Assembly (NCBI GenBank): GCA_039030075.1
Contig: JBCCEW010000024.1
Span: 1-64,000, forward strand
Direction of reading: 5' to 3'
Source of the DNA: Myxococcota bacterium
Lineage (GTDB): Bacteria; Myxococcota_A; UBA9160; SMWR01
Length of the DNA: 64,000 nucleotides
Part shown: positions 10,907 through 44,716 of the stretch, piece after piece
Layout of the letters: each line of letters begins with the position of its first letter
Position numbering within the stretch: position 1 is the stretch's first letter
Notes under the pieces: model-generated
Databases searched by the model: none
Told to the model about the DNA's origin: nothing
What the model saw: only the letters and a program-made list of their open reading frames with translations
Program-made: the position numbers and the translations under genes

Positions 10907-13336
10907 ATGCACGACAGCTCGAGCTTCGAGCACGCTCTCGCCCAGGGGATCGCCACGCTCGGACAGGGCGATCTGGACCAGGCGGCGGACGCCTTTGCCT
11001 GCGCTGCTCGCGAGGGACAGCGCGGGGGCTGGCGGTGCGAGAGCGAACGCCCGGTGGCGCTGCTCTTGGATCAGCCCTGGTGCGGCTACCCGAACGTCGA
11101 GCTGGTCGCGGCGCTCGCGGAACGCGGTTGTCTCCCGGTCGTGATGAGTCCCGAGGTGGCCCTCGGCGGCGCGCTGCCGGACGTGAACGCCGAGAACTGG
11201 CGCACGCTCCGCCACCGGGGCGTCTCGCTCCGGGACGTCGCAGCCTACGACCTCTGCGTGCGGCACGAGCGGACCCTCGCCGAGCTCGAAGCGGGCGCCC
11301 TCGCGCTCCCCGCCATCGCGGCCGAGTTCGATCGCGCGGTGCGGATGCTCGACCGCGCCGACGCCTTCCTGGAAGTCTTCACGCCCGCGGTAGTGGCCAT
11401 TGCCCAGGGGCACGTGCTGGCGAGCGCGGCACTGCGCGCACTGGCCCAGGCGCGCGGCGTGCGTGTGGTGGCGCTCGAGAACACGATGCACCGGGAACGG
11501 CTGCTGTGGGACGACGGCGCAGCGCTCCCTGTTGTGCACAATCCGGTGCGCGCGAGCTGGTGGTGCCGAAGCGCCGCGGACCCGGCGCAGGACACGGCCT
11601 ACGCCGAAGCGTTCCTGCGCGACGTGCGGGGGCTGAAGAGCGAGGAGCACGCGGGCCCGGCCCAGACTCCTTCTGCGTCCGCGGTGACCCCGGTTCCCTC
11701 GGCGCCCCCGGCCGGACAGACGCTGCTCTACCTCGGCCAGGTCTCCACCGACTCGGCGGTGCTGTGGGGGCTCTCGCCGGGCTTCGATCGCCAGGTCGAC
11801 GTGCTGCGATCCCTCACCGCGTACGCCGCCGATCGAGGCCTGCGGGTGCGCGCAAAGCTGCACCCGAAGGAGGCCGGAGGCGACAACCCCCTCGAGCTTC
11901 CCTACGACCGGCTCACCTGGCGGCAGGTGACAGCCGACCCGGAGCTCTCGCGTTGGATGGGGCAAGGAGTCCTCGAGGTGGATGCCGACAACGGCTGGGA
12001 CACCTATGCCGCGATCGAAGCCGCGGATGCGTGCGTCACGATCACCTCCCAGGCGGGCCTCGAAGCGCTGCTGGCGGGGCGCGAGGTGGTCCTGTGCGGC
12101 CGCGCGTTCTACGGCGGGCTCGGATTCACCCACGAGGCCGACGGACCCGAGACCCTGGCGGGTTGCCTGGACCGGGCCCTGCGTCGCGACGGACAGCGCA
12201 ACGATCCCGCGACGGTGCGCGCGTTCTTCCGGCACTACCTCGAGCAGCAGTGTGTGGCGAAGACGCCAGAGAGCGTCGCGGACGTGCTGTGCGCCGGCCT
12301 ATCGCTCGTGCCGAACGAGAAGCCCGAACCGGTGGGCAAGGACTTCGCGTACGAGAGTGGCGAACGTCAGACGGCGCTGCGCTACGACGAGATCCGTTAC
12401 GACCACCGGGCGCGCTACGAGTTCGCGGCCGAGGCCCTGCGTTCGATCGGCGGGAACCGGACGCTCGAAGGCGCCGACGTCTTCTGCGGCAACGGCTACG
12501 GCACCCGGTATCTCGCCGAAGGGAGCAGCGCCAAGCTGCAGGGCATCGATGGGAGTGCCGAGGCGGTGGCCGTCGCGGCGGATCGCTTCGCCCACCCGCG
12601 CGCTCGCTATGACCACGCCTGCTTCCCCTTCGCGCTGCCCGAGCGTTCGCTGGACTTCGCCGTGTCCTTCGAGTCGGTGGAGCACGTCGAAGCGGACACC
12701 GAGTTCGTGCGAATGCTCGCCGACGCCCTGCGTCCGGGCGGTCTGCTCTTCCTCTCGACGCCGAACGAGGCCGCGCTGCCCTTCCAGACGAACGCGGACT
12801 ACTTCGGGCACCACTGTCGTCACTACACCCAGCGCGAGATCGAGGACCTCGCTGGCCTCCGCGGGCTCGCACCGCGTTTGACGCTGGGCCAGGACTGCTA
12901 CCGACTGACGGGCAACCGCGTGAGTGGACTTCTCGACGAGCCGGCGATGGGTTTGCGCGACGACCTCGAGACACCCCAGTTCTGGGTCCAGGTATACGAA
13001 CGCATCGGCCTGGCCGAGGCGTCGCGTGCGGACGGGGTCCGTTTGGCGGGTATGCCGCTGGGCGATCTGGCGGGGCTCGGGCCCGGCGCCGTGGGGCACT
13101 TCGCGAGCCGCGAATTCGCCGATCCGAGCGAGCGTGAGAGGCTGACCGCGCAGCTGGGTCAGGTACGACGGGCGCTCGCGCCCGGCGGCAGCGTCGAGCT
13201 GCGACTGGGGTCGGGGGACGCTCTCCCGCGCTTCTCCGCGGCGCGCGCGGTGCTGCTCGGCGCAGGCTTCTGCGATGTCGTCGGGGTGCCGGGCGAGCGG
13301 AACGAGCTTCGCATCGCGGCCTGGCAGCCGCGCTAG
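10907..13336 (+). CDS. Capsule-polysaccharide-type transferase fused to a SAM-dependent methyltransferase
   Basis: 809 aa from the ATG preceded by AGGAG. The N-terminal half (about 1-460) resembles the Capsule_synth/KpsS-like glycosyltransferase fold: TLLYLGQVSTDS near 270, RAKLHPKE near 325, and ITSQAGLEALLAGREVV near 380, the usual donor-binding HP and SS/TS-x-G elements. The second half (about 495-690) is a class I methyltransferase: DVFCGNGYGTRYLA for SAM binding, an acidic GIDGS, and FESVEHVE. A poorly defined C-terminal module ends the protein. It probably assembles and methylates a surface glycan together with the divergent glycosyltransferases. The fusion is in one uninterrupted frame. 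Family calls are by eye. Confidence 0.75.
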   Translation: MHDSSSFEHALAQGIATLGQGDLDQAADAFACAAREGQRGGWRCESERPVALLLDQPWCGYPNVELVAALAERGCLPVVMSPEVALGGALPDVNAENWRTLRHRGVSLRDVAAYDLCVRHERTLAELEAGALALPAIAAEFDRAVRMLDRADAFLEVFTPAVVAIAQGHVLASAALRALAQARGVRVVALENTMHRERLLWDDGAALPVVHNPVRASWWCRSAADPAQDTAYAEAFLRDVRGLKSEEHAGPAQTPSASAVTPVPSAPPAGQTLLYLGQVSTDSAVLWGLSPGFDRQVDVLRSLTAYAADRGLRVRAKLHPKEAGGDNPLELPYDRLTWRQVTADPELSRWMGQGVLEVDADNGWDTYAAIEAADACVTITSQAGLEALLAGREVVLCGRAFYGGLGFTHEADGPETLAGCLDRALRRDGQRNDPATVRAFFRHYLEQQCVAKTPESVADVLCAGLSLVPNEKPEPVGKDFAYESGERQTALRYDEIRYDHRARYEFAAEALRSIGGNRTLEGADVFCGNGYGTRYLAEGSSAKLQGIDGSAEAVAVAADRFAHPRARYDHACFPFALPERSLDFAVSFESVEHVEADTEFVRMLADALRPGGLLFLSTPNEAALPFQTNADYFGHHCRHYTQREIEDLAGLRGLAPRLTLGQDCYRLTGNRVSGLLDEPAMGLRDDLETPQFWVQVYERIGLAEASRADGVRLAGMPLGDLAGLGPGAVGHFASREFADPSERERLTAQLGQVRRALAPGGSVELRLGSGDALPRFSAARAVLLGAGFCDVVGVPGERNELRIAAWQPR

Positions 13337-13367
13337 AGGCGGGCCGGCTGCCTGGCGGTGCCGGCCG

Positions 13368-13396
13368 TTGACGCTCTCAGGGGCGCCCCCGATACT
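13368..13396 (+). promoter_or_regulatory. Promoter of the TetR gene (TTGACG-17-GATACT)
   Basis: TTGACG at 13368-13373 and GATACT at 13391-13396 are separated by 17 bp, a good sigma-70-type arrangement. The start point would fall inside the palindrome at 13399-13418. Confidence 0.6.
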
Positions 13397-13398
13397 CC

Positions 13399-13418
13399 AC
13401 TTGGTCGCGCGACCAAGT
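13399..13418. promoter_or_regulatory. 20-bp perfect palindrome, probable TetR operator
   Basis: ACTTGGTCGCGCGACCAAGT is identical to its reverse complement over all 20 bases. It starts 3 bp after the -10 box and 71 bp before the TTG start of the TetR gene, the classic place for autorepression. The TTGGTCG/CGACCAA half-sites are of the form seen for TetR-family regulators of acyl-CoA metabolism. I did not see a second full copy in the window. Confidence 0.7.
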
Positions 13419-13488
13419 TCGCGCCCAGCGTCGTGTCCGTGAGGCATCTCGCCCGCCGGTCACCGCGCGTGGACTGCCTGGAGGCTCC

Positions 13489-14148
13489 TTGGCCCGCACC
13501 GACTCGCGCGAGCGCATCTTGAATGCAGCCGAGTCCCTGTTCGCGGAAAAAGGCGTGCGGGCGGCTTCGCTGCGTGAGATCGGGGCGCGAGCCCGGGCGA
13601 ACCCGGGCTCGATCTACTTCCACTGGAAGACCAAGGCCGAGCTGGTGCGCGAGGTGTTTGCGCGGCGCCTGGGCCCGCTCGACGCGGAGCGGTTGCGCCG
13701 GCTCGAGGCGGCCGAGAAGGAGCACGCCCCCGAGGCGGTTCCGCTCGAGGGCGTGCTCGAAGCGCTGGTGGCGCCGATGCTCGAATTGCTCACCCAGCAG
13801 CGGAGCGGCGCCGGCTTCCTGCGTCTGCTGGGGCGCACCTACAACGAGCCCGACCGCGATCTCGTGCGCATGCTGCGCCGGGACCACGGCGCCACCGTCG
13901 AGCGCTTTCGCGACGCGCTGGCGCGCGCGCTGCCCGAGCTCCCCGAAGAGCAGCTCTTCGTGCGGTTCCACTTCGCGCTGGGCGCGCTCGCCTACACCCT
14001 GGGCAGCGACGCCAGCTGGCAGCTGGTGGTGGGTGCGCGCAAGCGTCCCGCGTCCTGGGAGCAGGTGTTGAGCGAGCTGATGCCGTTCCTGGTCGCCGGG
14101 TTCGGTGCGCCGAGTGCCTTGCCCGACACGCGACGCGGAGCGGCCTAG
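13489..14148 (+). CDS. TetR-family transcriptional regulator
   Basis: 219 aa. N-terminal helix-turn-helix (about 6-52: RERILNAAESLFAEKGVRAASLREI, then SIYFHWKTK), followed by an all-helical ligand domain. TTG at 13489 is used; GGAGG stands 4 nt upstream and no other start in this frame fits. It lies 57 bp ahead of the ipdC homologue, transporter and crotonase, so it is a natural candidate to control them and possibly the whole steroid gene set, like KstR2 for HIP genes in mycobacteria. It is not clearly orthologous to KstR2. The palindrome at its promoter is the likely binding site. Confidence 0.88.
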   Translation: MARTDSRERILNAAESLFAEKGVRAASLREIGARARANPGSIYFHWKTKAELVREVFARRLGPLDAERLRRLEAAEKEHAPEAVPLEGVLEALVAPMLELLTQQRSGAGFLRLLGRTYNEPDRDLVRMLRRDHGATVERFRDALARALPELPEEQLFVRFHFALGALAYTLGSDASWQLVVGARKRPASWEQVLSELMPFLVAGFGAPSALPDTRRGAA

Positions 14149-14205
14149 CCACGCGGCCGCGCGAAGCGAAGCTACCCTGGACCTCGACCCGAAGGAGACC
14201 CCGTC

Positions 14206-15282
14206 ATGAGCCATCCCACCCTGCGCACCGTCCTGTGCGAACTCACTGGCGTCGAGTACCCGATCGTCCAGACCGGTATGGGCTGGGTGGCGAGCGCGAA
14301 GCTCGTCTCTGCCACGGCGAACGCGGGCGGCCTCGGCATCATCGCGTCGGCCACGATGGACCTGCGCCAGCTCGAGGCGGCGATCGCCGAGACGAAGAGC
14401 CGCACCGACAAGCCCTTCGGCGTGAACCTGCGCTCGGATGCCCCGGACGTCATGGACCGCGCGGCGCTGATGGTGCGCGAAGGCGTGAAGGTGGCGTCCT
14501 TCGCCCTGGCCCCCAGTGAGAAGCTGATGCGCTCGCTGAAGGACGAGGGGCTGGTGTGCATCCCGTCGATCGGCGCGAAGCGCCACGCCGAGAAGGTGGC
14601 GGGCTGGGGAGCCGACGCGGTGATCGTGCAGGGGGGTGAGGCCGGCGGTCACACGGGCAGCGTGCCGACCACGGTGCTCTTGCCGCAGGTGGTCGATGCG
14701 GTCGACATCCCTGTGATCGCGGCGGGCGGCTTCTTCGACGGACGCGGACTGGTCGCGGCGCTGGCTTATGGCGCGGCGGGCATCGCGATGGGCACACGCT
14801 TCCTGCTGACGAGCGACTCGCCCGTACCCGACGCGATCAAGCAGGTCTACCTGCAGGGGAAGGTCACGGACACGGTGGTCACGACCCAGGTCGACGGTCA
14901 CCCGCATCGCGTGCTGCGCACGCCGCTGGTGGAGCGTCTGCTCAAGACCAACGCGGTGACGAGCCTGCCCCGGGCGGCTCAGAACGCGCTCGCGTTCCAG
15001 CAGATGTCGGGTGCCTCGTGGTGGGATCTGATCCGCGAGGCGATCTCCATGAAGCGCAGCCAGGAGCTCTCCTGGAGCCAGGTGATCATGGCCGCGAACG
15101 CACCGATGCTGCTCAAGGGCACGATGGTCGAAGGCAAGGTAGACGCGGGTGTCATGGCGAGCGGGCAGGTGACTGGCCTGATCGAAGATCTCCCGAGCTG
15201 TGCCGAGCTGATCGGCCGGATCGTGGCCGAGGCCGAGGACACCCTGAACCACCTCGGGGCGAAGGCGCCCCAGGACGCCTAG
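14206..15282 (+). CDS. ipdC: IpdC-like flavin enzyme (nitronate monooxygenase superfamily), steroid ring C/D degradation
   Basis: 358 aa TIM-barrel flavoprotein. The start VQTGMGWVASAKLVSATANAG, the FMN-phosphate loop GGEAGGHTG (143-151, His149) and AAGGFFDGRG (172-181) place it in the nitronate monooxygenase/2-nitropropane dioxygenase family. From memory these segments match mycobacterial IpdC (Rv3553) much better than a true nitronate monooxygenase. IpdC acts on the CoA thioester of the C/D-ring indane intermediate in HIP catabolism. It follows the TetR gene, and the other ipd genes lie at 38.7-47.5 kb. Database annotation by family alone would give the misleading name nitronate monooxygenase. 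Confidence 0.82.
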   Translation: MSHPTLRTVLCELTGVEYPIVQTGMGWVASAKLVSATANAGGLGIIASATMDLRQLEAAIAETKSRTDKPFGVNLRSDAPDVMDRAALMVREGVKVASFALAPSEKLMRSLKDEGLVCIPSIGAKRHAEKVAGWGADAVIVQGGEAGGHTGSVPTTVLLPQVVDAVDIPVIAAGGFFDGRGLVAALAYGAAGIAMGTRFLLTSDSPVPDAIKQVYLQGKVTDTVVTTQVDGHPHRVLRTPLVERLLKTNAVTSLPRAAQNALAFQQMSGASWWDLIREAISMKRSQELSWSQVIMAANAPMLLKGTMVEGKVDAGVMASGQVTGLIEDLPSCAELIGRIVAEAEDTLNHLGAKAPQDA

Positions 15283-15300: not shown

Positions 15301-16554
15301 GTGGCCGGTGGGGCCACGCATCGGGACATCGCTGAGGACGCGTTGAGCTTCGCCGAGTTTCGCGGGCGCGCCTTCTGGGTGGTGCTGGGCTGCTTTGTCT
15401 GTCAGATGGGCCTGGGCTTCGGCTACGGCATGACGGCTCTGGCCCCGGCCCTGGTGGAAGACCTCGGCTGGTCGCGTGCCACCTTCTCGTCGGCACAGGC
15501 GCCCCAGGTGTTCTTCATCGCCGGGGCGAGCCCGCTGGTCTGGTGGGTGCTCCTGCGGCTCGGCGCGCGCGGCCTGTTCGCCTTGTCGGCGGTGCTGCTC
15601 GGGTCGGCCTACGTGATCGTCGCGGGCATGGATGCGTGGTGGGAGTTCGCCTTCGCCTGGGCGCTGGTGGGGCTCGCCGTCACGGGCCTCGGCGACATCA
15701 CGGTGGGCGCGGTGATGGCCCAGTGGTTTCGCGAGCGCCGGGGCCTGGCTCTGGGCATGGCGTACACCGGTTCGAACGTCGGCGGCTATCTCGCCACCAC
15801 CCTGATGGTGGCGCTCGCCGCCGGTGGCAGCTGGCGCGACGGTGTGGGCGCGATGGCGGGCGTGGCGTTCTGCGTGCTCCTGCCCGTGGCGCTCTTCGCG
15901 GTGCGCGAGCGCGGCAGCGTGGCCCGGGTGGAAGACGTGGACGCCGTGGGCGAGGAGACCGATCTCTCCCTCGGCGAAGCCGTCCGCACGCGCAGCTTCT
16001 GGATCCTCGCCTTCGGACTCGGCGTGTATTGGTGCGATCTCTATATCCTGCTGCACCACTTCGGCCTGGCCGCCGTCGATGCCGGGTTCGCGGCGGAACA
16101 GGCCGCGTTCTACTGGAAGAACGCGGTGCTGATGGGCTTGCTCAGCAAGGTGGCGTTCGGTTTCGTCGCCGATCGCCTGCCGGCGAAGGCGGCCATCCTG
16201 CTCGACTACGCGCTGCTCTCGGTCGCGATCGGTTCGCTCCTGTGGATCTCGGCCTGGGGAGCCTGGGGCGGCTGGGCCTTCGTCGTGGTCTTCGGGTTCG
16301 CGTACACCGCGCGCGATGTCGCGACGCCCCTGGCGATCGCCTACGCCTTCGGGGGTCGGCATCTCGCCCAGATCTACGGCGTGATGATGCTGACGATTCT
16401 GTTGGCGGGTCCCGGGCCCGTGGTCGCCGGAGCCATCCGCGATGCCACCGGGAGCTATGCGCCCGGGTTCGGCCTGTTGGCGGCGCTGAACGTCGTATCC
16501 TTCCTCGCGCTCTGGGCGTTGCGCGACGAGCGTCGTCGTTCGGCCCGGTCGTGA
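15301..16554 (+). CDS. Major facilitator superfamily (MFS) transporter
   Basis: 417 aa, about twelve hydrophobic segments with a charged loop in the middle (about 205-225), as in MFS permeases of the monocarboxylate/oxalate-formate type. Motif-A-like residues are present (QWFRERRGLALG near 141-152). GTG at 15301 gives the full frame; TTG at 15343, preceded by GAGG, is an alternative that still keeps the first helix. It sits between the ipdC homologue and a crotonase, so a steroid-derived acid or other carboxylate is a reasonable but untested substrate. Confidence 0.85.
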   Translation: MAGGATHRDIAEDALSFAEFRGRAFWVVLGCFVCQMGLGFGYGMTALAPALVEDLGWSRATFSSAQAPQVFFIAGASPLVWWVLLRLGARGLFALSAVLLGSAYVIVAGMDAWWEFAFAWALVGLAVTGLGDITVGAVMAQWFRERRGLALGMAYTGSNVGGYLATTLMVALAAGGSWRDGVGAMAGVAFCVLLPVALFAVRERGSVARVEDVDAVGEETDLSLGEAVRTRSFWILAFGLGVYWCDLYILLHHFGLAAVDAGFAAEQAAFYWKNAVLMGLLSKVAFGFVADRLPAKAAILLDYALLSVAIGSLLWISAWGAWGGWAFVVVFGFAYTARDVATPLAIAYAFGGRHLAQIYGVMMLTILLAGPGPVVAGAIRDATGSYAPGFGLLAALNVVSFLALWALRDERRRSARS

Positions 16555-16566
16555 CGGAGACCTGCG

Positions 16567-17322
16567 ATGGCCGATGAACTTCGCTTCGAGACCCCCGAGC
16601 CGGGGATTGCGGTGCTCACCCTGCACCGGCCCGAACGCCTGAATGCGCTGAACGCCCCGCTGATGGAGCAGCTCGACGCCGCGCTCGGGCGCGTGCGGGA
16701 CGATGCCGACCTGCGGGTGTGTCTGCTGCGCGGCGCGCCGCGCACGAACGGCACGCCGTGCTTCAGCGCGGGGGTCGACCTGAAGGCCTTCGCCGAGGGG
16801 CAGGGCGTGGGCTTCCAGCCGGGGATCCGGATCACCGACACCCTGGCCGCGCTGCCGAAGCCGACGATCGCGGTGATCGACGGGGTTTGCACCACCGGCG
16901 GCGCGGAGCTGGCGGTCGCTTGCCACCTCCGGCTCGTGGCCCCGACCGCACGCATCTCCGACTGGCACCTGAGGAAGCTCGGCACCGGCCTCGGTGCCTG
17001 GGGAGCGTCCACGCGCTGGGCGCGGCTGGTGGGCGCGGCGCGCACGCGGGAGCTGTTTCTCACCGGCCGCGAGATCGATGGCGAAGAAGCGCTGCGGATC
17101 GGCTTCGCGAGCCGGCTCGTACCTTCCGCGTCGCTCTTCGAGACGGCGCTCTCGCTCGCACGCGAGATCGCGACGCTCGACCCACGCGGGGTGGCCATGA
17201 CCCTGGCCCACCTGGCGCGCGTCGACGACCAGAGCGAGGCCCAGGCGCTGGCCTTCGCGGCCCAGGCGCCGGACTGGTTCGGGATCCAGCCGGACCTGGG
17301 GCAGGACCCGGGCGCGGAGTGA
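16567..17322 (+). CDS. Enoyl-CoA hydratase/isomerase (crotonase) family protein
   Basis: 251 aa. Crotonase signatures: LHRPERLNALN (about 18-28), oxyanion-hole segments CFSAGVDLKAF (about 64-74) and CTTGGAEL (about 107-114). The segment that normally carries the first catalytic Glu reads LRKLGTGLGAWG here, without that acid, so classical hydration may not be its reaction; CoA-thioester isomerisation or ring hydrolysis are alternatives. It begins 12 bp after the transporter gene and ends the tetR-ipdC-MFS-crotonase run. Confidence 0.85.
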   Translation: MADELRFETPEPGIAVLTLHRPERLNALNAPLMEQLDAALGRVRDDADLRVCLLRGAPRTNGTPCFSAGVDLKAFAEGQGVGFQPGIRITDTLAALPKPTIAVIDGVCTTGGAELAVACHLRLVAPTARISDWHLRKLGTGLGAWGASTRWARLVGAARTRELFLTGREIDGEEALRIGFASRLVPSASLFETALSLAREIATLDPRGVAMTLAHLARVDDQSEAQALAFAAQAPDWFGIQPDLGQDPGAE

Positions 17323-17362: not shown

Positions 17363-17390
17363 TTGCCATTTGTGGAACGGGGCGTATCGT
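17363..17390 (+). promoter_or_regulatory. Promoter of the first ACAD gene (TTGCCA-16-TATCGT)
   Basis: TTGCCA at 17363-17368 and TATCGT at 17385-17390, spacer 16. The 10-mer CGTATCGTAT (17383-17392) recurs at 20134-20143 ahead of the paralogous ACAD. The local A+T richness stands out from the surrounding sequence. Confidence 0.6.
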
Positions 17391-17431: not shown

Positions 17432-18607
17432 ATGGATTTCGACTTCAGCGACGAAGAGAAGGCGTTCCAGAAGGAGGTCGAGGCCTTCCTCGCCGCCGAA
17501 GCGTCGCCCGACGTGATGGACGCGCATCCGGAGCAACTCTCCCAGACCGTGGATACGCCGCCGAAGCGGGCCTTCATGCGCAAGCTGGCCGAGCGGGGCT
17601 GGCTCGGGATGTCCTGGCCGAAGGAGTACGGCGGTCAGGAGCGGAGTGGCATCTACGACTTCCTGCTCACCGAGGCGCTCTCGCGCTGGGGTGCACCCCA
17701 GCCGGGGAAGGGCGTCGGGATCGTCGGCAAGACGATCATTCGCCACGGCAACGAGAAGCTGAAGAAGACCTTCCTGCCGAAGATCATGCGTGGCGAGGTC
17801 GAGTTCGCGATCGGTTACAGCGAGCCCCAGGCCGGATCCGACGCGGCGAACATGCAGCTGAAGGCCCAGAAGGTCGACGGCGGCTGGAAGCTCGACGGCA
17901 AGAAGATCTGGACCACCTCGGCGCACTTCGCCGACTGGTACTGGGTGGGCGCCCGCACGGATACGAGCCACAAGCACAAGGGCATCACCCTCTTTCTGAT
18001 CGAGATGAACCACCCGGGTCTGACCCTTAGCCCGACCTGGACGATCGGCGACGAGCGGACCAACGAGGTGTTCTTCGACGACGTGTTCGTCAGCGACGAC
18101 TTCGTCGTGGGCGAGGTCAATCACGGCTGGACCTATATCTGTGAAGCCCTCGACCTCGAGCGCTTCGCGATGATGCCGGTCGGCTGTCTCGAGAAGAAGG
18201 TCGAGGCGCTCTGCGAGCACGTGGCCACCACGAAACGCGACGATCGCCCCCTGCGCGAGGATCCCGGCGCGCGGCGGGCCGTGGCCCAGACCGTGACCCA
18301 GCTGGAAGTGGCGCGCATGCTCCAACGACGGGTGATCAGCGAGGCGCTGAAGGACCGCGTCCCCACCGTGGAGTCGTCCCAGTACAAGCTCTACATGAAC
18401 GAGACCGGCCAGCGCATGACGAACGCGACCCTCGACCTGCTCGGCTCCGAGGGCCTCCTGAAGAAGGCGAACGCGTCGGCGCCGATGGGCGGGCGCTTCG
18501 AGCGCTCCTATCGCTACACGGTCGTCGACACGATCGGGGGCGGGACCTCCGAAGTGCAGAAGAACATCATCGCGCGGCGCGGGCTGGGACTTCCGGCGAA
18601 CTTTTGA
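17432..18607 (+). CDS. Acyl-CoA dehydrogenase, alpha-type subunit (FadE)
   Basis: 391 aa from an ATG with CGGAGG 5 nt upstream. ACAD fold: FAD/substrate motif GYSEPQAGSDAA (about 128-139), WTTSAHFADWYW, and the isovaleryl-CoA-dehydrogenase-type catalytic Glu in DLERF (about 240). The C-terminal GGGTSEVQKNII segment binds FAD. It oxidises an acyl-CoA to the enoyl-CoA and passes electrons to ETF. It is a close paralogue (perhaps two-thirds identical) of the protein at 20252-21433. The gene stands alone behind its own promoter; a catalytic-Glu-less partner could come from elsewhere in the window. Confidence 0.92.
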   Translation: MDFDFSDEEKAFQKEVEAFLAAEASPDVMDAHPEQLSQTVDTPPKRAFMRKLAERGWLGMSWPKEYGGQERSGIYDFLLTEALSRWGAPQPGKGVGIVGKTIIRHGNEKLKKTFLPKIMRGEVEFAIGYSEPQAGSDAANMQLKAQKVDGGWKLDGKKIWTTSAHFADWYWVGARTDTSHKHKGITLFLIEMNHPGLTLSPTWTIGDERTNEVFFDDVFVSDDFVVGEVNHGWTYICEALDLERFAMMPVGCLEKKVEALCEHVATTKRDDRPLREDPGARRAVAQTVTQLEVARMLQRRVISEALKDRVPTVESSQYKLYMNETGQRMTNATLDLLGSEGLLKKANASAPMGGRFERSYRYTVVDTIGGGTSEVQKNIIARRGLGLPANF

Positions 18608-35181: not shown

Positions 35182-36372
35182 TCAGCGCGTGACGATCACC
35201 GAGGAGCCGTGGCCGAACAGGCCCTGATTCGCCGTGATTCCGGCCTTCGCGCCCTCGACTTGCCGGCCGCTTGCCTGTCCACGGATCTGCCAGGCGAGCT
35301 CGCAGACCTGGGCGATCGCCTGGGCCGGCACCGCCTCGCCGAAGCAGCCGAGGCCGCCCGAGGGATTCACCGGGATCTTGCCGCCGAGGGTGGTGTCGCC
35401 GTCGCGCAGCAGGCGCTCGGCTTCGCCGGGCTTGCAGAGACCGACGTTCTCGTACCAGTCGAGCTCGAGGGCCGAGGAGAGGTCGTAGACCTCGGCCATC
35501 GACATGTCTTCCGGCCCGAGGCCGCACTCTTCGTAGGCGGCGTAGGCGATCGAGTCCTTGAAGCCCTTGTCGGGCGCCTGGATCCCGGCGGCCGAGTCGG
35601 TGGCGAACTTCGGCATGTCGATCACGACGTCCGGGTAGGTGGGCGTGATCGTCGAGATCGCCGCGATCTTCGGGAAGTCGGTCGCGTGCTTGCGCGCGAA
35701 GTCGAGCGAGCTGAGGACGATCGCGGCGCCGCCGTCGCTGGTGGCGCAGATCTCGAAGAGGCGGAGCGGGTCGGCCACCAGCGGTGAGCCGAGCACCTCT
35801 TCTTCGGTGAAGACCTTCTTGTAGCGAGCATTCGGGTTCGCGTGCCCGTGCTTGCTGTTCTTCACCTTGATGTGGGCGAAGTCCTGCTCGGTGGCGCCGA
35901 AGAGGTCCATGCGGCGGCGCGCGTAGAGGCCGAAGTAGGTGGGGTTGGTCGCGCCGAGCAGGCGGAAGCGCAGCCAGTCGGGGTCGAGGGTGCGCTCGCC
36001 CTTGTTCGGCGCGAGGAAGCCCTTCGGCGTGGTGTCGGCGCCGACCACGAGCGCGACGTCACACATGCCGGCCAGGATCCGCGTGCGCGCGGCTTCGAGG
36101 GCCTGGGTGCCGCTGGCGCAGGCCGCGTAGTTGCTCGAGATCGGAATGCCCGTGTAGCCGAGGGCCTGGGCGAAGCTCGAAGCGGCGACATAGCCCGGAT
36201 AGCCGTTGCGGACCGTCTCACCGGCGGCGAGGAACTCGACCCGGCGGTAGTCGACGCCGGCGTCGTCCAGCGCGGCCTTCGCCGCGTGCACGCCGTACTC
36301 GACGAAGTTGCGCCCCCACTTGCCCCAGGGATGCATGCCGACCCCGAGGATCGCGACTTCATGATTGGCCAT
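35182..36372 (-). CDS. Thiolase-superfamily lipid-transfer protein (SCP-x/Ltp type)
   Basis: 396 aa thiolase fold of the SCP-x/lipid-transfer group. Cys85 in SNYAACASGTQAL is the nucleophile; IPVNPSGGLGCFGEAVPAQA and GLFGHGSSV supply the C-terminal elements. Related proteins in steroid degraders are beta-ketothiolases or retro-aldolases that need a DUF35 partner, and the neighbouring gene 75 bp upstream encodes exactly such a protein. Likely role: C-C cleavage of a steroid or fatty acyl-CoA. ATG at 36372 is the conserved start; the extension to 36420 is Arg/Pro-rich. Confidence 0.87.
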   Translation of the reverse strand: MANHEVAILGVGMHPWGKWGRNFVEYGVHAAKAALDDAGVDYRRVEFLAAGETVRNGYPGYVAASSFAQALGYTGIPISSNYAACASGTQALEAARTRILAGMCDVALVVGADTTPKGFLAPNKGERTLDPDWLRFRLLGATNPTYFGLYARRRMDLFGATEQDFAHIKVKNSKHGHANPNARYKKVFTEEEVLGSPLVADPLRLFEICATSDGGAAIVLSSLDFARKHATDFPKIAAISTITPTYPDVVIDMPKFATDSAAGIQAPDKGFKDSIAYAAYEECGLGPEDMSMAEVYDLSSALELDWYENVGLCKPGEAERLLRDGDTTLGGKIPVNPSGGLGCFGEAVPAQAIAQVCELAWQIRGQASGRQVEGAKAGITANQGLFGHGSSVIVTR

Positions 36373-36447
36373 TCGGATTCTCCTGCGAGAGCGGGGTCGC
36401 CGCGGCGGGCACCACCGCACGGGGTAGGGTGAGCTGGGTGGGGTGGG

Positions 36448-36885
36448 TCAGGCCGCGACGGGCTTCCACTTCCAGATGATGTGTTCGTGCTCGTCGTCCT
36501 CGAAGAGGGTGTCGAGGATGAGTTCCATCTCCATCCCCACTTCGAGCGATTCCGGGTCGACGCCGGGAGCCAGCTGCCCCAGTACAACCATGCGCTCCTC
36601 GGGCAGCTCGACCGCGGCGACGGTGTAGGGCTCGAAGGGCTCGGCTGACACGTAGGGCGCCGGCGGCTGGTAGTGATTCGTCGTGTAGGACCACAGCTTG
36701 CCGCGACGCGACAGCGGCGCCTCCTGCAGCTCCGCGCCCGCGTAGCCCGGGGCGGCGGAGATGGCGACGTCCTTCGGGAAGAAGTAGCTGCCGCTCTGGG
36801 GATCGTGCAGGCCGAGCAGCCGGGGTTCGTCGTCCATCGTGAACCAGTTCTCGATGGCGGGAATGCGGGTCTTCTCGGGGGGCAT
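36448..36885 (-). CDS. DUF35 OB-fold protein, zinc ribbon degenerate
   Basis: 145 aa. The order is a short N-terminal helix, the ribbon region (LGLHDPQSGSYFFP), and an OB-like beta-barrel with YTVAAVELPEERMVVLGQL and MEMELILDTLF. DUF35 proteins normally hold two CxxC pairs in the ribbon; none is left here. DUF35 partners are required by thiolase-like retro-aldolases such as Ltp2, and the gene is next to a thiolase of that superfamily, so complex formation is expected. ATG at 36885 has GAAGGA upstream. Confidence 0.8.
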   Translation of the reverse strand: MPPEKTRIPAIENWFTMDDEPRLLGLHDPQSGSYFFPKDVAISAAPGYAGAELQEAPLSRRGKLWSYTTNHYQPPAPYVSAEPFEPYTVAAVELPEERMVVLGQLAPGVDPESLEVGMEMELILDTLFEDDEHEHIIWKWKPVAA

Positions 36886-36948
36886 GGGTCGGTCCTTCGG
36901 TTTGGCGTCGGGGGAGAGGTGTAGCACGGGGCGCGTCTTGCCCGGGGC

Positions 36949-38499
36949 CTAGATCGCGCGCTCCCGGTCCTTCCAGTATGGATCGCGCAGCTTGCGCACG
37001 TAGAGCTTCCCCGAGGCGTGGCGGGGCAGGGTGGTCTCGAAGTCGATGCTGCGGGGCACCTTGTAGCGGGCGATGCGCTCGCGGGCCCAGTCGAGGATCG
37101 CCGTCTCGAGCGCCTCACTCGCGGTCTCGCCCGGCATCAGCTCGACGGCGGCCTTCACGCTCTCACCCCATTCGTCGTCCGGGATCCCGAACACCGCGAC
37201 GTCGGCGATCGCCGGGTGCTCTTGCAGCGCGGCTTCGACCTCGGCGGGATAGATGTTCACGCCGCCCGAGATGATCATGTGCGACTTACGGTCCGCGAGG
37301 TAGACCCAGCCGTCTTCGTCGACGCGACCGATGTCGCCGATCGTGAAGGTGTAGTCGTCGAGGAAGCTCTCGGCCGTCTTCTCGGGCGCGCCGTGGTACG
37401 CGAACCAGTGGGGCGTCGTCTTGTGACGGGCGTAGAGCAGCCCGTTCTCGCCCGGCGGCAGGCGTTTGCCGGCGTCGTCGGCGGCGAAGAGATCGAAGGC
37501 CGGCAGCATCTTTCCCACTGTGGACGGGTGCTCCATCCATTCCTTCGAGTTCGCGAGGGTCATCACGCCGCTCTCGGTGGACCCCCAGTACTCGACCAGG
37601 ATCGGGCCCCACCAGTCGATCATGCGCTCCTTCACCGGACGGGCGATCGGCGCGGCGCCGTGGAGCACGAGGTGCAGCGCCGGCGCCGAGAAGCGCGCTC
37701 GCTCGTCCTCGGGCAGGTCGAGCAGGCGCACGAACATCGTCGGGACGAGGTGGGTCTGACCGACCTCGCGCTCCTGGAGGAGCCGAAGCGCTTCGCCGGC
37801 GTCCCAGCGCGGCATGACCAGGATCGGCGCGCCCGTCGACTGGCCGTAGATCGCGAACATCAACGGCGAGGCGTGGTAGCAGGGGCCCGTGATCAGGTGG
37901 GGACCCGGTCCGTCGAGCCCGGTGTTGCGCGCGTAGGCGCGCTGGCCCTCGCGCGCTGCGCCGAGGCTCGGGGGCCGGTGCCGCTGCACGCCTTTGGGCC
38001 GGCCGGTGGTGCCGCTCGTGTAGATCATCGGGCCGCCGGCGGGATCTTCCGCACGGAAGGGCGTGTCCGAGGCGTCGGCGAGGCCCGCCTCGAAGCCGTC
38101 TCCCGTGCTGACGACCGGGCCGTCGAACACGGCCTGCGCGAGCGCGGCGTAGTCCGGGTCGGTGAACAGCACCCGGGCGTCGGAGTCGGCCACCACGTAG
38201 GCGACCTCCTCCTGGGACAGGTGCCAGTTGATCGGCGTGAGCCACACCCCGGCCTGGATCGAGGCGAGCATCAGCTCCACGCACTCGGCGCGGTTGCCCA
38301 TCAGGGTGGCGATGCGGTCGCCCGGTCTCGCGCCGAGTTCGTGGATCCAGCGCGCGAGGCGCGTGGTGCGATCGGCGAGCTCGGCCCAGCTGCGCTGCAG
38401 GTGGCCGTCGTCGAGGGCCAGACCCTGGGGATCGGAGTCGCACTGGGCGTCGAAGAGCATGGGGGAGGGGGCCTCGCTGCCGGAGAGCGCGTTGGTCAC
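36949..38499 (-). CDS. Acyl-CoA synthetase (AMP-forming, FadD type)
   Basis: 516 aa ANL-superfamily ligase. P-loop MIYTSGTTGRPKG (about 158-170), EYWGSTESG (about 297-305), TIGDIGRVDEDGWVYLADRKSHMIISGGVNIYPAEVE (hinge) and PRHASGKLYVRKLRDPYW (catalytic Lys) are all present. It activates a carboxylate to its CoA thioester. The C-terminal RKLRDPYW resembles FadD19/FadD4 rather than FadD3, so the substrate may be a side-chain acid or HIP; only experiment can say. GTG at 38499 is assumed; ATG at 38460 would also leave an intact enzyme. Divergent from ipdA. Confidence 0.88.
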   Translation of the reverse strand: MTNALSGSEAPSPMLFDAQCDSDPQGLALDDGHLQRSWAELADRTTRLARWIHELGARPGDRIATLMGNRAECVELMLASIQAGVWLTPINWHLSQEEVAYVVADSDARVLFTDPDYAALAQAVFDGPVVSTGDGFEAGLADASDTPFRAEDPAGGPMIYTSGTTGRPKGVQRHRPPSLGAAREGQRAYARNTGLDGPGPHLITGPCYHASPLMFAIYGQSTGAPILVMPRWDAGEALRLLQEREVGQTHLVPTMFVRLLDLPEDERARFSAPALHLVLHGAAPIARPVKERMIDWWGPILVEYWGSTESGVMTLANSKEWMEHPSTVGKMLPAFDLFAADDAGKRLPPGENGLLYARHKTTPHWFAYHGAPEKTAESFLDDYTFTIGDIGRVDEDGWVYLADRKSHMIISGGVNIYPAEVEAALQEHPAIADVAVFGIPDDEWGESVKAAVELMPGETASEALETAILDWARERIARYKVPRSIDFETTLPRHASGKLYVRKLRDPYWKDRERAI

Positions 38500-38710
38500 C
38501 CGAGCGTGACGGGTTTCCCTTGCGGGGACGGCCGTTTACAGAAACGGAACGTCTCGTTATCTTACTCGCCGCTCGGCGCTGCCGCAGCGCTGCGCCCCGA
38601 AAACGGATCGCGGAACCGACCCGGAACCGCGCCGCGACTCCCCCGCGTGCCAGGCCCCGCGCATTGCCGAGGGCCTCGGGGACGCGACGGGTCCGGAGCC
38701 AGGAGACCCG
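38500..38710. other. Divergent promoter region between fadD-type and ipdA genes
   Basis: 211 bp. Contains the ipdA promoter at 38535-38562. An AACG...CGTT inverted pair (38544-38558 region) overlaps its spacer and could bind a regulator; the TetR palindrome of 13399-13418 is not repeated here. Confidence 0.45.
38535..38562 (+). promoter_or_regulatory. Promoter of the ipd operon (TTTACA-16-TTATCT)
   Basis: TTTACA at 38535-38540 and TTATCT at 38557-38562, spacer 16, in a local A+T-rich island. It implies a leader of about 140 nt before ipdA. Confidence 0.55.
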
Positions 38711-39559
38711 ATGGACAAACGCACCTCGCTCACCGAGGCGGTCGGCGAGCTTCGCGACGGCATGACCATCGGGATCGGTGGTTGGGGTTCGCGTCGCAAG
38801 CCGATGGCGGTCGTGCGCGAGATCCTGCGCACCGACCTGAAGGACCTCACGATCGTCTCCTACGGTGGGCCCGACATCGGGATCCTGTGTGCCGCGGGCC
38901 GGGTCCGGAAGGCCTGCTTCGGCTTCGTCTCCCTCGATTCGATTCCCCTGGAGCCCCATTTCCGGAAGGCGCGACAGGAAGGCTCGATCGAGACCTTCGA
39001 GCTCGACGAGGGCATGTTCCAGTGGGGCCTGTACGCGGCGGCGACCCGGCTGCCCTTCCTGCCCACGCGCGCGGGCCTCGGCTCCGACGTGCTGACCCTG
39101 AACCCCGAGCTCGAGACGGTTCAGTCGCCCTACGACGACGGCGAGACGCTGGTAGCGATGCCCGCCCTCGAGCTCGACGTCGCCTTCGTCCACATGAACC
39201 GGGCCGATGCCCAGGGAAACGGCCAGTTCCTGGGGCCCGACCCGTTCTTCGACGACCTCTTCTGTATGGCGGCGAAGCAGCGCTTCCTGACCTGCGAGCA
39301 GCTGATCCGCACCGAGGACTTCCTCACGGAAGGCAGCGTTCACACCCTGCTGCTCAACCGCACGATGGTCGACGGCGTGATCGAGACGCCGAACGGCGCG
39401 CACTTCACCGAGTGCCCGCCCGACTACGGTCGCGACGAGCCCTTCCAGAAGGAGTACGCCGCGACGGCGAAGGATCCGTCGGCCTGGGAGAGCTTCTACG
39501 CGAAATACCTGGCCCTCGACAGCGAGGCCGAGTACCAGAAGGCGGTGGCGGCGAAATGA
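38711..39559 (+). CDS. ipdA: IpdA, alpha subunit of the steroid ring-opening CoA-dependent hydrolase
   Basis: 282 aa. The start MDKRTSLTEAVGELRDGMTIGIGGWGSRRKPMA and the segments SYGGPDIGILCAAG and GFVSLD match, from memory, mycobacterial IpdA (Rv3551) closely. IpdAB has a CoA-transferase fold but hydrolyses a C-C bond of COCHEA-CoA, opening the last steroid ring (ring C). ATG has AGGAG 5 nt upstream. The gene overlaps ipdB by ATGA, as expected for a 1:1 complex. It is the first gene of a nine-gene plus-strand run to 47537. Confidence 0.92.
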   Translation: MDKRTSLTEAVGELRDGMTIGIGGWGSRRKPMAVVREILRTDLKDLTIVSYGGPDIGILCAAGRVRKACFGFVSLDSIPLEPHFRKARQEGSIETFELDEGMFQWGLYAAATRLPFLPTRAGLGSDVLTLNPELETVQSPYDDGETLVAMPALELDVAFVHMNRADAQGNGQFLGPDPFFDDLFCMAAKQRFLTCEQLIRTEDFLTEGSVHTLLLNRTMVDGVIETPNGAHFTECPPDYGRDEPFQKEYAATAKDPSAWESFYAKYLALDSEAEYQKAVAAK

Positions 39560-40320
39560 GCGACGCAACCCGAGCCGAAGTGTGTGCGATCGCGATTGCC
39601 GAGTGCTTTCGCGACGACGGCGAGATCCTGGTCTCTCCGATCGGGAACCTGCCCCAGATCGGGGCGCGCCTGGCGCGTTCGACCTTCGCACCGGACCTGT
39701 TGATGACCGACGGCGTGGCGCCGCTGCTCGCCAACGTGCTGCCAGTGAGCGGGAGCGATCGGCCCGACCCGGTCGTCGAAGGCTGGCTCCCCTACCGGAG
39801 GGTCTTCGACAACCTCTGGTCGGGACGCCGGCACGTGATGATGGGCGCCACCCAGATCGATCGCTACGGCAACCAGAACATCGCCTGCATCGGAGACTAC
39901 GCGAAGCCGAAGGCCCAGCTGCTGGGCATGCGCGGCGCGCCGGGCAACACCATCAACCACACCACCAGCTACTGGGTGCCCGGCCACTCGGACCGGGTCT
40001 TCGTGCCGAAGGTCGATGTAGTCACGGGCATCGGCTACGACCGCGCCCGCGAGCTCGGCGAGCGCGCCACCCGCTTCCACGAGATTCGTCGCGTCGTCTC
40101 GAGCCTGGGCGTCTTCGACTTCCAGACCGACGACCAGCGCATGCGCATCGCGTCGGTGCACCCCGGTGTCTCGGTGCAGGACGTCGTCGACAACACCGGC
40201 TTCGAGCTGGTGGTGCCGAGCGACGTCCCCACGACGCGCGAACCGACCGCGGAAGAGCTGCGGCTCTTGCGCGAAGTGATCGACCCGGGCGGACTCGCGA
40301 ACGGCGAAGTCCGCGCCTGA
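39556..40320 (+). CDS. ipdB: IpdB, beta subunit of the steroid ring-opening CoA-dependent hydrolase
   Basis: 254 aa CoA-transferase beta-type fold. VSPIGNLPQIGARLARSTFAPDLLMTDG, MMGATQIDRYGNQNIACIGDYAKPKAQLLG and GAPGNTINHTTSYWVPGHS are present, whereas the SENG-type Glu motif of ordinary beta-ketoacyl-CoA transferases is absent, as expected for IpdB, which hydrolyses rather than transfers CoA. Starts inside the ipdA stop (ATGA) and is followed 10 bp later by echA20. Confidence 0.92.
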   Translation: MSDATRAEVCAIAIAECFRDDGEILVSPIGNLPQIGARLARSTFAPDLLMTDGVAPLLANVLPVSGSDRPDPVVEGWLPYRRVFDNLWSGRRHVMMGATQIDRYGNQNIACIGDYAKPKAQLLGMRGAPGNTINHTTSYWVPGHSDRVFVPKVDVVTGIGYDRARELGERATRFHEIRRVVSSLGVFDFQTDDQRMRIASVHPGVSVQDVVDNTGFELVVPSDVPTTREPTAEELRLLREVIDPGGLANGEVRA

Positions 40321-40330
40321 GGGGAAGACC

Positions 40331-41086
40331 ATGGCTTTCCGCTCCGACGTCCAGGACGGCATCGCCGAACTCGTCATCGACAACCCGCCGGTGAATGCCC
40401 TGACCACCCAGGGGTGGCTCGACTTCGCTCGCGAGATCGCACGCCTGGGCGAGAGCTCCGACGTGCGGGTGCTGCTGATCCGCGCCGATGGGCGAGGCTT
40501 CCAGTGCGGGGTCGACGTGAAGGAGCTCGCGGCGGACGGCTCGAAGATCGTCGACGCGAACCGGGGCTGCTACGAGACCTTCGGCAACATCTACGACTGC
40601 CCGGTACCGGTGATCTCGGCCGTGCACGGCTACTGCCTGGGCGGCGGAATCGGGATCGCCGGGTCGAGTGACTTCGTGCTCGCGTCCGAGGACGCCACCT
40701 TCGGCCTGCCCGAGATCGATCGGGGCGCGATGGGAGCCGCGACCCATGCGATGCGCATGTTCGGGGTCCAGGAGGCCCGCCGCATGCTGCTCACCGGCGA
40801 GCCGATCGACGCGGCCGAAGCGCTGCGCCTGGGCGGCCTGCTCTCGGTGGTCCCGGCAGAGAAGCTGCGCGATGCCGCGCTGGAGCTGGCGACGAAGATC
40901 GCGACCAAGAGCCCGGTGGCCGTGCGCGCGGCGAAGGCCTCGCTGAACGGCATCGAACTGCTCGATCCGAAACAGAGCTACCGGTTCGAGCAGGGCTTCA
41001 CGCTCGAGCTGTACACGATGGGCGACTCCCAGGAAGCCCGCGACGCCTTCGTCGAGAAGCGCGACGCGAAGTTCGACGACGAGTAG
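40331..41086 (+). CDS. echA20: EchA20-like crotonase, steroid ring D hydrolase
   Basis: 251 aa. IDNPPVNALTTQGWLDF, GRGFQCGVDVKEL, ANRGCYETFGNIYDCPVPVISAVHGYCLGGGIG and ATFGLPEIDRGAMGAATH match, from memory, M. tuberculosis EchA20 (Rv3550). EchA20 hydrolyses the five-membered ring of HIEC-CoA to give COCHEA-CoA, the substrate of IpdAB. Its place directly after ipdAB supports this role. RYRMEQGF-type C-terminus (SYRFEQGFTLEL) is also conserved. Confidence 0.88.
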   Translation: MAFRSDVQDGIAELVIDNPPVNALTTQGWLDFAREIARLGESSDVRVLLIRADGRGFQCGVDVKELAADGSKIVDANRGCYETFGNIYDCPVPVISAVHGYCLGGGIGIAGSSDFVLASEDATFGLPEIDRGAMGAATHAMRMFGVQEARRMLLTGEPIDAAEALRLGGLLSVVPAEKLRDAALELATKIATKSPVAVRAAKASLNGIELLDPKQSYRFEQGFTLELYTMGDSQEARDAFVEKRDAKFDDE

Positions 41087-41117
41087 CTCCCCGAAAACAC
41101 CGCGAAGGCGACTCTCC

Positions 41118-42278
41118 GTGGATCTCACCTACACCCCCGCACAGCAGGCCTTTCGCACCGAGGTGCGCGACTGGCTCGGTGCCCACGTCCCGAAGGAGCC
41201 CCTCGCGTCCTTCGACACGAAGGAAGGCTTCGAGGCGCACCGTGAGTGGGAGCACGTGCTCAACGATGGCGGCTACGCGATGGTGCCCTGGCCCGTCGAG
41301 TATGGCGGGCGTGGGGCGAACCTCCTCGAGTGGCTGATCTTCGAAGAGGAGTACTACCGGGCGGGTGCGCCGAAGCGGGTGAACCAGAACGGGATCTTCC
41401 TGCTCGGTCCCACCATCATGGAGTATGGGACGCCGGACCAGAAGGCACGCTTCCTGCCGAAGATGGCCGCGAGCGAAGAGGTCTGGGCCCAGGGCTGGTC
41501 CGAGCCCAACGCGGGCAGCGACATGGCCAACATCCAGGCCACGGCGATCCGCGACGGCGATCACTACGTGATCAACGGTCAGAAGACCTGGGCGTCGCGC
41601 GGTGCCTACGCCGACTGGTTGTTCGGGATGTTCCGCACCGACCCCGAGAGCGAGCGACACCGCGGGCTGACCTTCGTCCTGGTGCCGCTGGACCTGCCCG
41701 GCGTCACGGTGCGACCGATCGCGCAGCTCGACGGTCTGCCGGGCTTCGCCGAGGTGTTCCTCGACGACGTCCGGGTGCCGGTCGAGAACCGGCTCGGCGA
41801 CGAAGGGAAGGGCTGGCAGGTCGCGATGGCGACGGCCGGTTTCGAGCGCGGCCTGATGCTGCGCAGCCCCGCGCGCTTCCAGGAAACCGCGCGGCGCTTG
41901 ATCGATCTCTATCGCGATCACGCGGCCGAGGCGGCGCCGGGCGTCCGCGAGGCGGTGGTCGACTGTTGGAGCCAGGCCGAGGCCTACACGCTCGAGACCT
42001 ACCGCACCGTGTCGCGCCTGCTCGCGGGTGCGAAGATCGGCTCCGAGGCGAGCCTCAACAAGATCTTCTGGTCCGAGCTCGACCTGCGCATGCACGAGAT
42101 CGCGCTCCAGATCCTCGAAGAGCGCGGGCAGCTCTTGCCCGGCGCGCCGGCCGCGGGCGACGTGGGCAGCTGGCTCGACGGCTACCTGTTCGCACTGTCG
42201 GGACCGATCTACGCGGGCACCAACGAGATCCAGCGCAACATCATCGCCGAGCGCATCCTCGGCATGCCCCGGGCCTGA
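41118..42278 (+). CDS. ipdE1: IpdE1-like acyl-CoA dehydrogenase, alpha subunit (FadE30)
   Basis: 386 aa; GTG start. GWSEPNAGSDMANIQATA (about 131-148), TWASRGAYADWLFGMFRT, catalytic Glu in GFERGLMLRS (about 246) and GTNEIQRNIIAERILGMPRA. Resembles FadE30/IpdE1, which with IpdE2 dehydrogenates 5-OH-HIC-CoA in HIP catabolism. The next gene encodes a shorter beta-type ACAD, so the pair should form the IpdE1-IpdE2 heterotetramer. One repeat copy lies in the gap between them. Confidence 0.85.
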   Translation: MDLTYTPAQQAFRTEVRDWLGAHVPKEPLASFDTKEGFEAHREWEHVLNDGGYAMVPWPVEYGGRGANLLEWLIFEEEYYRAGAPKRVNQNGIFLLGPTIMEYGTPDQKARFLPKMAASEEVWAQGWSEPNAGSDMANIQATAIRDGDHYVINGQKTWASRGAYADWLFGMFRTDPESERHRGLTFVLVPLDLPGVTVRPIAQLDGLPGFAEVFLDDVRVPVENRLGDEGKGWQVAMATAGFERGLMLRSPARFQETARRLIDLYRDHAAEAAPGVREAVVDCWSQAEAYTLETYRTVSRLLAGAKIGSEASLNKIFWSELDLRMHEIALQILEERGQLLPGAPAAGDVGSWLDGYLFALSGPIYAGTNEIQRNIIAERILGMPRA

Positions 42279-42311
42279 CGATGAACTCACACCGTCGACC
42301 GAGGATCATGA

Positions 42312-42364
42312 CCGCAAGCGGCCTCTGGGGCCGCGCGCCGCGAGGCGAAGCCGAGCAAAGTTCA
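42312..42364 (+). repeat. Interspersed hairpin repeat, copy 2
   Basis: 53-bp copy. CCGCAAG, stem GCGGCC with a tctgg-type loop and GGCCGC, then CGCC-GCGA-GGCG and AAGCCGAGCAAAGTTCA. The last base is the A of the ipdE2 start codon, so the element ends exactly where translation begins. Confidence 0.75.
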
Positions 42365-42373
42365 TGAACTTTG
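42356..42373. repeat. 18-bp perfect palindrome over the ipdE2 start codon
   Basis: CAAAGTTCATGAACTTTG is identical to its reverse complement. The ATG (42364-42366) lies at its centre. It can act as a DNA operator or fold into an RNA hairpin that hides the start codon. There is no clear Shine-Dalgarno sequence in front. Confidence 0.7.
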
Positions 42374-43416: not shown

Positions 43417-43432
43417 GGCCGAAGCGTCGGCC
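43417..43432 (+). other. Short perfect hairpin between ipdE2 and fadA6
   Basis: GGCCGA-AGCG-TCGGCC directly after the ipdE2 stop: 6-bp stem with a 4-nt loop. There is no clean T-run after it (CTCTCTTCGTTTCCCG), so it may slow but not end transcription. Confidence 0.45.
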
Positions 43433-43490
43433 GCAGCCCTCTCTTCGTTTCCCGTTTCACGCGCGCCGGACGCGCTCCAAGGAGAACCCC

Positions 43491-44642: not shown

Positions 44643-44650
44643 AGAAGGGT

Positions 44651-44700
44651 CCGCAAGCCGCCGCAGGCGGCGCGCCGTGAGGCGAAGCCGAACGAAGCCA
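44651..44700 (+). repeat. Interspersed hairpin repeat, copy 3
   Basis: 50-bp copy between fadA6 and the SDR gene. The first stem is GCCGCC-GCA-GGCGGC, differing from copies 1 and 2 by one base on each side so that pairing is kept. The CGCC-GTGA-GGCG hairpin and the AAGCCGAACGAAG tail are conserved. Confidence 0.75.
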
Positions 44701-44716
44701 AGAAGGAACTCTTTGA

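Follow-up and report, generated by a model that had tools for sequence, protein, structure and literature searches.

A PsrA-like TetR regulator and a palindromic candidate operator very probably linking two steroid operons in an uncultured Myxococcota-like lineage

A perfect 20-bp palindrome, ACTTGGTCGCGCGACCAAGT, was found at positions 13399 to 13418 of the 64,000-nucleotide stretch of DNA analyzed here (the window). There is a high probability that it is the operator of the adjacent tetR gene, the product of which would be an autoregulating TetR protein of the PsrA lineage that governs a steroid regulon of two operons. As a near-copy of ACTTGGTCGCGCGACCAAGT occurs at one other place in the genome, before steroid side-chain genes, it is very likely a repressor site. 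The argument draws on what can be read from sequence, namely, the anatomy of promoter and box, their conservation, the two sites per genome, the co-occurrence with the regulator, the identities of the genes, and an altered recognition helix. The control logic appears to be that of ordinary TetR proteins in a new setting, with one PsrA-lineage regulator and an operator word of its own serving two steroid operons. The operator finding is real, and it is better supported than the author of the preliminary description of this DNA could have known.

At the tetR promoter, a −35 hexamer (TTGACG; 13368 to 13373, plus strand), identified by reading and by a promoter scan, is followed by a 17-nt spacer, a −10 hexamer (GATACT; 13391 to 13396, plus strand), the dinucleotide CC, and then ACTTGGTCGCGCGACCAAGT, in which 10 of 10 pairs match. 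This arrangement is exactly as the preliminary description had it, and its placement of the palindrome over the start of tetR transcription also holds, with the expected start at approximately 13402 to 13404 lying inside 13399 to 13418. The palindrome is 70 bp upstream of the TTG start codon of tetR at 13489, and a likely ribosome-binding site (GGAGG; 13480 to 13484, plus strand) was recognized by reading. Searching the 951 bases from 13300 to 14250 for sigma-70-type promoters returned only the tetR promoter, with a match of 9/12, while shuffles of the same region gave a mean of 0.0 matches (n = 50). Within the window, ACTTGGTCGCGCGACCAAGT is the sole perfect palindrome of at least 20 bp, and at 15 sites no more than one of the ten pairs is mismatched. 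Dinucleotide-preserving shuffles contained a mean of 0.27 perfect 20-bp palindromes per window; because 14 of 60 shuffled windows equaled its length with at least one such palindrome, length alone is weak evidence. Unlike length, the position of the palindrome together with its conservation is strong evidence. A position weight matrix built from six box sites scored 31.1 at 13399, with the next best position in the window scoring 3.6. Elsewhere in the window, an A-T-rich near-palindrome, GCAAAGTTCATGAACTTTGA, is located at 42355 to 42374, just past an open reading frame ending at 42278, and is unusual for a window of 69% G+C.

Conservation was assessed across 79 genomes of the order, including the source genome (G000), 17 of the family, and 377 drawn from the phylum. 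Close orthologues of the regulator were identified in two of the 78 other genomes of the order: G013, from the same genus (85%), and G001, from another genus of the family (65%). Among the 377 phylum genomes, no further close orthologue exceeded 42% identity at an E value of 1e-40, and the best relative (G077, 42%) has a different type of upstream palindrome, which contains a TTCAAACATACG stretch. Both orthologous tetR genes have kept the −35 hexamer, the 17-nt spacer, the −10 hexamer, and the box, with TTGACG-17-CATACT preceding ACTTGGTCAGGCGCCTAAGT in one promoter and TTGATC-17-CATACT preceding ACTTAGTCAGCTGGCTAAGT in the other. The suggestion that this is an autoregulated TetR promoter thus gains support, as promoter and box are kept at three of three orthologous tetR genes. 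In pairwise comparisons, 13 to 16 of the 20 letters of the tetR box are common, with 10 to 14 of 40 in the 40-nt flanks; in the tetR box of G013, 6 of 10 pairs match by reading, which leaves it only partly symmetric. When the sites of both promoters are pooled, 13 to 20 of 20 letters are identical in the box versus 9 to 16 of 40 in the flanks, so that the flanks have drifted to noise level while the box was kept. The genes upstream of tetR differ among the three genomes, and the box stays. The system is known from three genomes only, two of them from one genus.

The preliminary description had proposed an exact search for TTGGTCGN0-4CGACCAA as a way to find the regulon. This did not succeed, as a literal scan of the source genome yielded a single match, the query site itself. 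A second site, which has one asymmetric A/G half-site, appears only when the consensus is relaxed from the orthologues. The relaxed 18-mer CTTRGTCN4GNCYAAG, with zero mismatches, was found in three of the 17 family genomes, the same three that carry the orthologue, at two places in each. The 20-mer ACTTRGTCN4GNCYAAGT likewise matched in 3 of the 79 order genomes, again the same three at the same two places, with its reversed-pattern control matching in 2 of 79. The second sites are independent finds, since it was the three tetR promoters that supplied the consensus. With up to three mismatches allowed, a 16-mer returned 25 sites versus 45 for the reversed control; the 16-mer being the rarer, mismatch counting alone reveals no regulon. 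Allowing one mismatch in the 18-mer gave 3 + 2 matches in the source genome versus 17 + 18 for the reversed control, the box again being rarer. One extra site from that search (C5, 278355), asymmetric and located before what by eye is a universal stress protein-like gene, was set aside as chance. The weight-matrix scan of the window found no box before its other steroid genes, fadD and ipdAB; therefore, part of the pathway would lie outside the regulon.

The second box in the source genome is at 147980 to 147999 of contig C7, a different contig from that of tetR, and lies 46 nt before the start codon of an acyl-CoA dehydrogenase gene. In all three genomes a −10-like TATCCT or TATTCT closely precedes it, and orthologous acyl-CoA dehydrogenase genes follow it; no clear −35 hexamer was seen at these promoters. 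Between genomes, 16 to 20 of the 20 letters of this box are common, with 9 to 16 of 40 in its flanks. Homology searches identified the genes behind it (contig C7, locus L062, minus strand) as a chsE-chsH2-chsE-chsH1-ltp2 operon, comprising a first acyl-CoA dehydrogenase, ACAD1 (4x28_A, E value of 2e-127), a ChsH2 with a DUF35 part (4w78/4wnb, 3e-39; 6ok1_B, 2e-37; Pfam ChsH2 domains), a second acyl-CoA dehydrogenase, ACAD2, ChsH1 (4wnb_B, 6e-33), and Ltp2 (6ok1_A, 2e-174), with a P450 gene near them. The order of the five genes is kept in G001 and in G013, where ltp2 runs off the contig end. The steroid side-chain operon igr of mycobacteria has a gene set of the same type (chsE, chsE, chsH2, chsH1, and ltp2). 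An Ltp2-ChsH1/H2 pair has been described (PMC10398937). The preliminary description had left the putative regulon as one for steroids or acyl-CoA; the steroid alternative is now supported, as the one other box of the genome stands before this operon. Near the side-chain operon, all three genomes also carry a ferredoxin-reductase-like oxidoreductase gene (PaaE type, below cut-off; L062, 14036 to 15151; L063, from 9215; L064, 17358 to 18437), the product of which is a possible partner of KshA.

In the window, tetR leads into an ipdC-type flavin reductase gene of the NMO family (14206 to 15282, plus strand), which adjoins tetR in three of three genomes. Against curated models, its product resembles FabK (263 bits, with a cut-off of 453), as IpdC is reported to do (PMC5380842). 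It is 60 to 68% identical to plasmid-borne homologues from Streptomyces, Tsukamurella, Nocardia, Nonomuraea, and Rhodococcus; the Tsukamurella homologue lies directly behind genes for an enoyl-CoA hydratase and two CoA-transferases, a gene order that matches the one expected for echA20-ipdA-ipdB-ipdC. These homologues, the CoA-transferase context of one of them, and the constant adjacency to tetR bear out the earlier naming of the gene as ipdC. The operon presumably extends past ipdC. Judged by an 18-bp gap between reading frames, an MFS transporter gene (15301 to 16554, plus strand) probably belongs to it, and genes for an enoyl-CoA hydratase family protein (16567 to 17322, plus strand) and an acyl-CoA dehydrogenase (17432 to 18607, plus strand; the frame opens at 17363 and the start is a probable one) possibly do so. 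These three genes are not all kept behind ipdC in G013, where an MFS gene with a product 55% identical to that of the window lies further downstream and no counterpart of the hydratase gene was found near tetR.

Further steroid genes are present in the window, where positions 35185 to 46755 hold a steroid C/D-ring type cluster encoding an Ltp-like thiolase, an acyl-CoA ligase, IpdA, IpdB, a hydratase, acyl-CoA dehydrogenases, a thiolase, and an SDR. The ipdA and ipdB genes (6co6_A, E value of 1e-106; 6co6_B, 1e-84) share a stop-start overlap at 39556 to 39559. Window genes also score above the cut-offs of PRK07938, PRK07801, PRK07791, and PRK06059, which we take to represent EchA20, FadA6, IpdF, and an Ltp. 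The KshA_C domain was found above its Pfam cut-off in three of three genomes with the box and in none of 14 controls, and the two KshA_C-type oxygenases of the source genome are encoded on contigs C4 (60022 to 60615; L119) and C35 (31000 to 31581; L122). Such oxygenases may point to aerobic attack on the steroid rings in the lineage. For HsaA, the source genome gave sub-threshold matches only (best, 228 of 450 bits), seven of the 14 control genomes also matched, and the open reading frames in the neighborhoods of three of these matches revealed no obvious ring-cleavage cluster; a complete 9,10-seco pathway is therefore not demonstrated in this genome.

The regulator (13489 to 14148, plus strand; 219 amino acids from a TTG start) belongs to the TetR family, with a TetR_N helix-turn-helix at the N terminus (PF00440, 3.6e-15) and an all-helical C-terminal domain of the TetR_C_30 type (PF17939, 1.5e-29), both above cut-off. 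Its predicted model is all-helical, with a pLDDT of 91.6. The best full-length relative of solved structure by sequence is 2fbq (PA3006; E value of 1e-28), which we take to be PsrA; it is also the best match in a fold comparison (Z of 20.4 over 208 residues, root mean square deviation of 2.6), where the nicotine regulator NicR2 ties with it (Z of 20.3). Against the NCBIfam PsrA model, NF053516, the name of which suggests that it is Vibrio centered, the regulator scored 132.1 bits, below the cut-off of 300, and it is PsrA-like, not PsrA. The KstR2 structures 4w97 and 4w1u match at residues 7 to 60 only, within the DNA-binding domain (1.5e-5), and KstR2 is absent among the best 50 fold matches listed. 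Two further PsrA-like TetR genes are present in the source genome, L026 (C29), which has a TCGAACG-type palindrome upstream, and L022 (C5).

This kinship makes it possible, though rather unlikely, that the protein is an ordinary PsrA-type fatty-acid sensor controlling acyl-CoA genes, with steroids not the signal. The match to 2fbq in both sequence and fold speaks for such a sensor, and PsrA is described as responding to oleic acid (PMC13104628). However, the score of 132 bits is below the PsrA cut-off of 300, the operator is unlike the published PsrA word, and both target operons encode steroid-type enzymes. The recognition helix was compared in 32 sequences, the three orthologues and 29 other PsrA-like proteins; L012, L019, L025, L027, and L071 (partial or stop containing), L028 (the same gene as L007), L032 and L035 to L038 (near-duplicates), and L039 to L054 (partial matches) were left out. 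G40, S41, Y43, F44, and K47 are common to the three orthologues. In the 29 others, position 44 is always Y and position 47 always G, and positions 40 and 43 are never G and Y. An oriented upstream scan identified TTCAAACG-type palindromes at L011, L069, L070, and L073 and TCGAACG-type palindromes at L015 and L026, with none reported at some other PsrA-like loci. As relatives with the other helix carry palindromes of these types, the helix change seems to go with the operator change, a correlation. The helix of the three-orthologue clade presumably also resembles common TetR helices. The TTCAAACG-type word resembles TTCAAACN4GTTTGAA, a published PsrA word (PMC13104628). One excluded PsrA-like homologue, L071 (G062, contig C127), is interrupted by a TGA in the matched frame and is preceded by a long palindrome, TATGATTGAATCATATGATTCAATCATA.

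It is improbable that the box belongs to another DNA-binding protein, such as a different TetR or a global factor, and adjoins tetR incidentally. The source genome does encode TetR paralogues that could serve (two further matches, with E values of 4e-21 and 1e-20), but several of the PsrA-like paralogues scanned carry TTCAAACG- or TCGAACG-type palindromes instead, and the box stays where the genes upstream of tetR vary. Box and close orthologue occur together, in the same three of 79 genomes. A match to the orthologous acyl-CoA dehydrogenase is present in 68 of the 79 genomes (at least one each). The box was found at three of 30 inspected promoters of these genes and was lacking at 27, with the whole-genome scan covering the rest. 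G005, of the same family, has ACAD1 (75% identical) with ChsH2 adjoining and ipdC (72%), but the box and a close TetR orthologue are both absent, and its ipdC is not preceded by a tetR gene.

An RNA hairpin, serving as terminator of the upstream gene (stop at 13336) or within the tetR leader, is a very remote alternative: an 8-bp stem with a 4-nt loop could form 63 nt past the upstream stop codon, but no T run follows, a second copy stands at the start of another operon, and the tetR copy of G013 breaks the stem while retaining much of the half-site words. A terminator scan found no terminator-like match, and this reading was rejected. That a chance palindrome happened to fall near a promoter, as the shuffled windows might suggest, has next to no probability given that the box is conserved between flanks that have drifted, is placed identically, and recurs before orthologous operons in three of three genomes.

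If ACTTGGTCGCGCGACCAAGT is the operator, a TetR dimer on the start point would block RNA polymerase and so repress its own gene and the ipdC-type gene, and the same protein, presumably binding both boxes, would repress the operon for steroid side-chain removal from the box on C7. Repression by blocking of the polymerase, rather than activation, is suggested as the box overlies the start point. The repressor would leave its sites in response to a pathway catabolite. By analogy with the effectors of KstR and KstR2 as stated in PMC8700777, a steroid-derived CoA thioester is the likeliest inducer, fatty acids being the main rival. The chances seem evenly balanced that a PsrA-lineage TetR changed helix and operator together and became a steroid repressor, sensing a steroid CoA thioester and placing ipdC and side-chain removal under common control, in this uncultured Myxococcota-like lineage, an independent origin of KstR-type control. 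If so, such control arose independently outside the groups with known steroid regulons. Surveys from 2016 and 2018 confine the 9,10-seco pathway to Actinobacteria and Proteobacteria, the latter including deltaproteobacteria under their older taxonomy (PMC4810484, PMC5790920), and no steroid regulator of this lineage appeared among the open-access papers listed. Steroid breakdown outside the two surveyed groups can now be assigned a candidate regulator, together with its operator and the two operons it would target. The system also offers a natural test of a joint change of operator and ligand in a TetR protein, as well as a possible part for a steroid-CoA biosensor.

Among known systems, PsrA of Pseudomonas and relatives shares the TetR_C_30 subfamily and provides the best fold and sequence match, 2fbq; it autoregulates through a palindrome at its promoter, with the word C/GAAACN2-4GTTTG/C (PMC13104628). 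That word is absent here, ACTTRGTCN4GNCYAAGT standing before three of three orthologues, and the recognition helix and the score below the PsrA model cut-off are further differences. KstR2, a TetR protein of actinobacteria that represses the steroid C/D-ring regulon, is alike in its palindromic operator near its own gene and its ipdC-type target, and it acts on few promoters, three in each genome (PMC3068626). Its operator, AnCAAGnnCTTGnT (PMC3068626), differs from the present word, in which CTTG and CAAG stand in the opposite order. As to the C/D-ring (ipd) genes that KstR2 controls, an ipdC-type gene directly follows tetR in three of three genomes, but the ipdAB genes of the window lack a box in front of them; in contrast to KstR2, the side-chain operon here has an operator in common with the ipdC promoter. 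The second target resembles igr in its chsE, chsE, chsH2, chsH1, and ltp2 homologues and nearby P450 but differs in gene order and in the operator held in common with the ipdC promoter. In mycobacteria, igr is under KstR. EdcR, set beside our regulator by its description, is likewise a TetR protein that represses steroid catabolism in a Gram-negative organism, namely, estradiol degradation in Caenibius tardaugens (PMC8700777), but acts on another pathway and has estradiol and estrone as inducers. The best reading is that the regulator works like KstR, KstR2, and EdcR, a likeness of mode that makes no claim of orthology to any of them.
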